DNA of 64,000 nt from Ignavibacteria bacterium (GTDB lineage Bacteria; Bacteroidota; Ignavibacteria; Kapaibacteriales; UBA4661). The notes under the pieces were generated by a model. The model had not been told where the DNA came from. It did no database searches and was given only the letters and a program-made list of their open reading frames with translations. A program made the position numbers and the translations under genes. Where the stretch lies: the NCBI GenBank assembly GCA_013298775.1, contig JAAFIV010000004.1, positions 62,001 to 126,000 of the forward strand. Reading direction: 5' to 3'. This document shows, one piece after another, positions 4,638 through 53,547 of this stretch (positions are counted from its first letter, which is position 1; each line of letters starts with the position of its first letter).

Positions 4638-5099
4638 CTATACTGTACATTCTGGGCAAGCTCCCGTGAACTGCACAACATGATGGATATTCTGAAAGCC
4701 CGTGCGTTCGGCAATAATTTTATCAACTTCCGACAGCACACACGCACCAATGGCAAGCTGTTTGCCACAAGAAACGCATGAAATGGTGTGGGAATGATGC
4801 CGCTCGGTATGCGTACCAGTCAGGCAATATCGCCAACTTCCGTGCGAATGCTCCATTTTACAAACAATTCCGAGCTTCTCAAGCTGCTCAAGATTGCGGT
4901 AAATCGTTACAAGGTCAATATCCTGAAGGTGTGGAAGCTCGCTCTGGTCGTGCTTTCGTTCTTCCCAAGAAGAATAGATTTCTTGCGCTGTCATGGAATG
5001 TTCTGCGGCAAAGAGAATTTCCACCACTGCCTTTTTTCCTTTGGTAAGGCGCGGTACACGCTCTCGTACACGTTCCAGAAGATGTTCAATTGATTCCAT
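4638..5099 (-). CDS. Fur-family metalloregulator (Zur/Fur-like)
   Basis: 153 aa from the ATG at 5099. A TTG two codons upstream is less likely, because the -7 element at 5103-5110 would then overlap the start. The winged helix is at 15-85 with recognition helix DLVTIYRNLEQL (62-73). The metal region HHSHTISCVSC (101-111) and the distant CPEC (148-151) give four cysteines of a structural zinc site. Length and layout fit Fur, Zur or PerR. A near-perfect palindrome overlaps the -33 box of its own promoter, suggesting autorepression, and the merC-like gene follows. Zinc is the likeliest signal given the partner, but this is inference. Confidence 0.9.
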   Translation of the reverse strand: MESIEHLLERVRERVPRLTKGKKAVVEILFAAEHSMTAQEIYSSWEERKHDQSELPHLQDIDLVTIYRNLEQLEKLGIVCKMEHSHGSWRYCLTGTHTERHHSHTISCVSCGKQLAIGACVLSEVDKIIAERTGFQNIHHVVQFTGACPECTV

Positions 5100-5102
5100 G
5101 CA

Positions 5103-5132
5103 CAAAAATACGGAAAAGTTTTCTTATTGCAA
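5103..5132 (-). promoter_or_regulatory. Bacteroidota-type promoter of the fur-type gene
   Basis: Read on the minus strand, TTTTG with TTG at 5132-5130, a 19-nt spacer, then TATTTTTG at 5110-5103. This matches the TTG-N19/20-TAnnTTTG consensus. The -7 box ends only 3 nt before the ATG, so the transcript would start at or very near the start codon. Confidence 0.65.
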
Positions 5133-5145: not shown

Positions 5146-5195
5146 AGCTGTGTCGGAAAATTATTGCTGAAGTACATTTGTGGAAATTATTACAA

Positions 5196-5286
5196 TAGAG
5201 TTTATCTCGAATAAGGTTTTTAGAGTTTTGGAGCAAGGCAGCATGCTGCCTTGTTTAGTAAAAAAGTCTATTCGGAATAAAGTCTA
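5196..5286 (+). repeat. 91-bp palindromic mini-element, copy 1
   Basis: The ends TAGAGTTTAT and ATAAAGTCTA are imperfect inverted repeats (the similarity extends ~20 bp inwards), and the centre is a perfect 20-bp palindrome at 5234-5253. An identical copy (91 of 91 bases) lies in the opposite orientation at 27633-27723. It has TA at both ends and no coding capacity, as expected of a non-autonomous MITE. Confidence 0.8.
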
Positions 5287-5380
5287 ATGATTTCAACAGG
5301 ACGAGCAAGAAGTTCAGCAGAAGGTTTCAGATGGTCTGCGGCTTGAGATTGTTTAAGAATCAAGCAAAAGAGGACATACA

Positions 5381-24880: not shown

Positions 24881-25052
24881 TAGACATTATGCAGATTAAG
24901 CTCTGAAGGGCTGGGAATGGCGTAAATACTGGCTTCAGTGGCTTGAGACTTCTTGTCTGTGTTTGTCGCCTGAACCCCGCACCAATGCTCACAGACAAGA
25001 AGTCTCAAGCCACTATTTGAAGAGCAAAAACAGCTAATCTGTATAATGTCTA
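24881..25052 (+). repeat. ~170-bp inverted-terminal-repeat element, copy 1
   Basis: Terminal inverted repeats of 18 bp (24881-24898 and 25035-25052, one mismatch), reading TAGACATTATrCAGATTA inward. Between them is a long hairpin: GTGGCTTGAGACTTCTTGTC pairs with GACAAGAAGTCTCAAGCCAC. A second, inverted copy lies at 27467-27730 and a decayed one at the window end. No coding capacity. Confidence 0.75.
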
Positions 25053-27430: not shown

Positions 27431-27466
27431 GTTGTCTGTTTGTGATTCTATGAACGATATAGCTAT

Positions 27467-27730
27467 TAGACATTATACAGATTAGCTGTTTTTGCTCTTC
27501 AGATAGTGGCTTGAGACTTCTTGTCTGTGAGTGTTGGTGCGGGGTTCGGGCGACAAACACAGACAAGAATGTCTGTGCCACTGAAGCCAGTATTTATGCT
27601 ACTCCCAGCCCCTCAACGCTTAATCTGTATAATAGACTTTATTCCGAATAGACTTTTTTACTAAACAAGGCAGCATGCTGCCTTGCTCCAAAACTCTAAA
27701 AACCTTATTCGAGATAAACTCTAATGTCTA
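27467..27730 (-). repeat. ~170-bp inverted-terminal-repeat element, copy 2, interrupted
   Basis: Reverse-complement relative of 24881-25052 (roughly 85-90% by eye). The left 18-bp terminal repeat is intact at 27467-27484. The right one is split: TAATCTGTATAA ends at 27632, the 91-bp element occupies 27633-27723, and ATGTCTA completes it at 27724-27730. Confidence 0.75.
27633..27723 (-). repeat. 91-bp palindromic mini-element, copy 2
   Basis: Identical over 91 bases to the reverse complement of 5196-5286. The perfect 20-bp palindrome is at 27666-27685. Inserted in the terminal repeat of the 170-bp element; removing it restores that repeat apart from one extra A. Confidence 0.82.
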
Positions 27731-27749
27731 TTTAAGAAGAGCAATTTCC

Positions 27750-36714: not shown

Positions 36715-36790
36715 GTGGCACAGACATTCTTGTCTGTGTTTTCCACCTGAACCCCGCACTAACACTCACAGATAAGAATGTCTGTGCCAC
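36715..36790. repeat. Dispersed TGTCTGTGCCAC hairpin
   Basis: Arms at 36715-36738 and 36767-36790 are 24-nt inverted repeats with one mismatch. Half-copies with the same sequence precede it at 36656-36675. Sits between two REC-kinase genes. Confidence 0.8.
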
Positions 36791-45323: not shown

Positions 45324-45395
45324 GTGGCACAGACATTCTTGTCTGTGATTCTTCAAACCCGCATAAAGACTCACAAACAAGAATGTCTGTGCCAC
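45324..45395. repeat. Dispersed TGTCTGTGCCAC hairpin
   Basis: Arms at 45324-45347 and 45372-45395 are 24-nt inverted repeats with one mismatch; ACGCT/AGCGT can extend the stem outward. Confidence 0.82.
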
Positions 45396-53471: not shown

Positions 53472-53547
53472 GTGGCACAGACATTCTTGTCTGTGTTTTC
53501 CGCCTGAATCTCGCACTAACACTCACAGACAAGAATGTCTGTGCCAC
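53472..53547. repeat. Dispersed TGTCTGTGCCAC hairpin
   Basis: Arms 53472-53495 and 53524-53547 are a perfect 24-nt inverted repeat, the cleanest copy in the window. Confidence 0.85.

Follow-up and report, generated by a model that had tools for sequence, protein, structure and literature searches.

A probable non-autonomous IS5-type miniature element, dispersed in near-identical copies through an Ignavibacteria genome and built around a palindrome common to several MITE-like families

The window analysed here, a stretch of 64,000 nucleotides from an Ignavibacteria bacterium, contains two copies of a short repeat: positions 5196-5286 equal the reverse complement of positions 27633-27723 at all 91 positions, and direct comparison thus bears out the first-pass annotation, which had reported a 91-bp repeat at 100% identity and in opposite orientation. 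Also present, as the same annotation described, are inverted ends that match imperfectly and, in the centre, a perfect palindrome of 20 bp. Alignment of all 23 full-length sites in the genome defines the mobile unit as 89 bp (AGAG...GTCT), with imperfect terminal inverted repeats of 17-19 bp and the ends AGAGTTTATCTCGAATAAG / AGACTTTATTCCGAATA. The TA that had been described at both borders exists as letters, but it is half element and half target duplication, and the true element is 89 bp. Copy 1 of this element, referred to as family A, occupies 5197..5285 on the plus strand between AAT target duplications at 5194..5196 and 5286..5288; its left terminal inverted repeat lies at 5197..5215 (plus strand), its right one, in the minus-strand reading, at 5269..5285, and its central palindrome, CAAGGCAGCATGCTGCCTTG, at 5234..5253. 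The identical copy 2 occupies 27634..27722 on the minus strand, with AAT duplications at 27631..27633 and 27723..27725 and the palindrome at 27666..27685. The 89-bp element contains no gene of its own and no transposase gene. The gene of a FUR-family regulator (4638-5105, minus strand) has copy 1 some 100 bp upstream, and an effect on its expression is possible.

A search for the 91-mer across the whole genome (5.19 Mb in 95 contigs, 99.2% complete), as the first-pass annotation had proposed, returned 23 full-length copies, a count to be read as at least 23, of which 18 are exact over 91 bp and the others carry one or a few changes each. With this copy number, a repeat arising by chance is ruled out. 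Insertions occur in both orientations, and identical 3-bp direct repeats flank the element at 23/23 sites: ATT at 14, AAT (its reverse complement) at eight, and ATG at one. Because of the single ATG/ATG site, the length of the duplication is 3 bp and the duplicated word is not TA. With all sites turned to the same direction, the target approximates C-ATT-G, a preference that can be written (C)ATT(G). The hallmarks of a miniature inverted-repeat transposable element (MITE) that were found are short length, terminal inverted repeats, lack of a transposase gene, target duplication, dispersed copies, and empty sites.

One such empty site is provided by the surroundings of copy 2. In silico removal of copy 2 together with one triplet restores a 170-bp MITE of another family (family E) with matching ends and ATT/ATT flanks. 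The interrupted family E copy spans 27468..27729 on the plus strand, its right terminal repeat split by copy 2 and its own ATT target duplication preserved at 27465-27467 and 27730-27732, while an uninterrupted copy, also flanked by ATT/ATT, lies 2.4 kb away at 24882..25051 (plus strand) and represents a paralogous empty site for copy 2. Of the 23 copies of the 89-bp element, four are inserted at this position in the ends of family E. Family E itself has about 20 copies genome-wide, with AGACATTATACAGATTA ends and ATT duplications, and its ends match an IS5-type insertion sequence (IS), L293, of the congener G002. It resembles the 89-bp element in the ATT duplication, in its AGAC end and in having IS5-type ends, and differs from it in its interior, in its older and more diverged copies, and in serving as an insertion target. 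The window also contains an abundant hairpin repeat (CACAGACATTCTTGTCTGTG, with its partner), which occurs alone, and a hairpin unit related to it (36719-36786, 45328-45391, 53476-53543 and 27558-27577); this unit makes up the interior of family E (approximately positions 42-135) and is found elsewhere without E ends as well, a second instance of MITE ends enclosing a shared core.

An orthologous empty site was found when relatives were examined for unoccupied loci, another check suggested in the first-pass annotation: the congener G005 has a locus to which the joined flanks of L013 align without gaps (86% identity), and there the triplet stands once and the element is missing. By a crude reading of open frames, insertions lie mostly outside or at the edge of long ones; the L013 insertion is close to where a frame starts, and the one at L021 lies inside a fragment of a histidine kinase. 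Like many loci of G001, G002, G005, G006 and G007, L021 belongs to a histidine kinase C-terminal (HATPase) stretch, which has many paralogs per genome at approximately 75-90% DNA identity. The locations of the element are many, and a single conserved location was not found.

Copies are also present in related genomes. The sister species G005 carries about 30, nearly all with the same two differences from the copies of this genome, and most of them have matching triplets, which there also include AGT, AAC and TTT. G001 has five older copies with yet another consensus. A few copies in G005 and G001 are without matching triplets, as expected for truncated or old copies. The two fixed differences of G005 indicate that amplification in that species was separate from that in this genome, and the two bursts would, on comparison of their copies, be both separate and recent. 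In G009, from a different genus of the same family, loci L105-L111 showed many MITEs, 93-190 bp long, whose ends are related (e.g., TAGAGTTTATTCCGATTA); a DDE_Tnp_4 gene was looked for in that genome and not found.

Which transposase could have moved the element is suggested by full insertion sequences of the genus, with which its ends were compared as the first-pass annotation had recommended; they proved similar, not identical, to those of IS5-family members. The congener IS elements are 980-1020 bp long, encode DDE_Tnp_4 transposases (Pfam) and end in AGA(G/C)NTTAT..., and the flanks are ATT/ATT at L293 and AAT/AAT at L129. A related IS has AGAC ends and a 318-aa transposase, whose match to the NCBIfam IS5 model is weak and below the curated cut-off. 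In G005, contig C36 contains a decayed DDE_Tnp_4 gene followed directly by a right end, AGAGTTTATTCCGAATAAG, that is the same as that of the 89-bp element. Duplications of the form ANT are reported to be consistent with bacterial IS5 elements (PMC4482050); the 3-bp duplication here is ATT or AAT at 22 of 23 sites and ATG at the remaining one. Since terminal repeats, triplet and target all match the DDE_Tnp_4 insertion sequences of the genus, we assign the 89-bp repeat to IS5, and it is very probably a non-autonomous IS5-type MITE (DDE_Tnp_4 type) moved in trans. Its link to a parent is a putative one, drawn from one relic and from ends that are similar, not identical.

The genome itself yielded no DDE_Tnp_4 match, and an intact IS with exactly these ends was found neither here nor in the nine nearest genomes searched. 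Three DDE_Tnp_1 loci of the genome were considered as helpers and rejected, as they are without matching ends. Two G005 contigs, C24 and C87, share their first 97 bp, a stretch that closes with an IS5-type end, pointing to a multi-copy element that breaks the assembly; these contig ends were considered as a full IS or parent and dropped, their best relative in the genome under study being a MITE-like stretch of about 150 bp. We conclude that the helper transposase was lost, is unassembled, or is external to the assembly. Recent movement in trans, as the first-pass annotation had supposed, is supported by 23 near-identical copies bearing identical triplets, the orthologous empty site, the nested insertion, the species-specific consensus sequences and the ends of IS5 type.

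The same observations bear on two other explanations of the repeat. It could be a selected intergenic palindromic repeat, REP-like or a regulatory RNA hairpin, whose copies stay identical through selection or gene conversion; a strong hairpin is predicted for either strand (z from about -4.6 to -5.0) and the central palindrome is common to other families, both as such a repeat would have it, but perfect 3-bp duplications at every site, the orthologous empty site and the nested insertion make this reading very improbable. Nor was there any Rfam match up to E = 1 that would mark the repeat as part of a conserved RNA, and a scan for intrinsic terminators at copy 1 found no terminator-like site. 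The TA present at nearly all borders would suit a MITE moved by a Tc1/mariner or IS630-type transposase, with TA duplications. We consider this the least probable of the explanations, given that triplets at 23/23 sites are repeats of 3 bp and not of 2 bp, that TA is missing from the left border of the ATG/ATG copy, and that the related ends belong to DDE_Tnp_4 elements; the 2-bp TA duplication that characterizes IS630/Tc1 was seen at none of the sites. Carriage by phages or plasmids was also considered, and no matches were obtained.

The non-autonomous IS5-type MITE thus preferred has a centre that it shares with others. At least three further MITE-like families, whose ends differ, have this palindrome in the middle. 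Family B is about 99 bp long, with ends TACCGTTT and TNA duplications (TTA, TCA, TAA and TGA among them); the length is about 95 bp in family C (TAAGTT...AACTTA) and about 90 bp in family D (GGTAATGYTC...). Families A and B differ in duplication type as well as in their ends. A looser form of the core, with four loop bases free and one mismatch allowed, gave 33 matches in this genome, 131 in G005, 23 in G001 and seven in another genus of the family, with 0-2 matches for a reversed control pattern. Among the matches listed, the exact core occurs only in Ca. Kapaibacterium records, and it was found in no viral contig; a literature search for the core sequence returned nothing. It is possible, if somewhat doubtful, that the palindrome is an exchangeable module, families with unrelated ends and different duplication types having been built around, or having captured, the same 20-bp hairpin. 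If true, this would imply either that the hairpin has a selected function or that new MITE families arise by a swapping of ends at the palindrome.

An addition to the main reading is that the palindrome is functional, as a protein-binding site, a hairpin that aids copying or a transcription stop, and that its carriers spread better. Its central position in families A, B, C and D despite their differing ends, the unlike duplications of A and B, and its confinement, among the matches listed, to Ca. Kapaibacterium speak for such a role, as does its constancy in family A, where the core is unchanged among the consensus sequences of three species and the flanking spacers differ. We nevertheless think this addition unlikely: there is no terminator-like T run; for families B, C and D, most of the loci were picked up by an exact match to the core, which biases any estimate of core conservation there; and for family A, the chance that none of about nine differences would fall in 20 of 89 bp is near 0.1, so that the constancy of its core is only suggestive of conservation.

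Taking the 89-bp repeat as an IS5-type MITE, an IS5-type transposase supplied from elsewhere would bind the terminal repeats and mobilise the element, and the same enzyme would insert it at ATT, with three bases duplicated. The parent IS, if intact, would bear AGAGTTTATYYCGAATAAG at both ends. The lineage of this genome and that of G005 would each have seen a spread of their own, starting from source copies that were related but distinct. The central hairpin, not known to be a requirement of transposition, would most likely be a passenger inherited with each copy, or else be kept for folding or host tolerance. What emerges is one MITE with apparently separate, recent bursts in each of two sister species from an uncultured bacterial lineage, in one of which no helper transposase was detected, and MITE families with a common central hairpin and different ends make the origin of new MITE families testable by comparison.

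Among the closest known systems is the IS5 family, and within it the ISL2-like group (DDE_Tnp_4 / HTH_Tnp_4), which the element resembles in its AGA(G/C)..TTAT ends, 3-bp ATT/AAT duplication and AT-rich target; it differs in being 89 bp long, in having no transposase, and in ends that are identical to those of no intact IS found. This placement, as ISL2-like, is suggested by ends, duplication and transposase matches rather than by a tree. Correia, ERIC and similar intergenic repeats are also small and hairpin-forming, with TA at their borders, but for the 89-bp element a TA duplication is excluded by the 3-bp repeats. BrickBuilt and other MITEs of Porphyromonas gingivalis have IS5-family ends and no transposase remnant in a member of the Bacteroidota (PMC4596501), and share with our element the phylum of the host, the match of the ends to the IS5 family and the lack of a transposase remnant. 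BrickBuilt differs in its sequence, in its minisatellite, and in duplications that vary in length (PMC4596501). That the 89-bp element is a MITE is well supported, and as such it belongs to a known and ordinary kind of mobile element.
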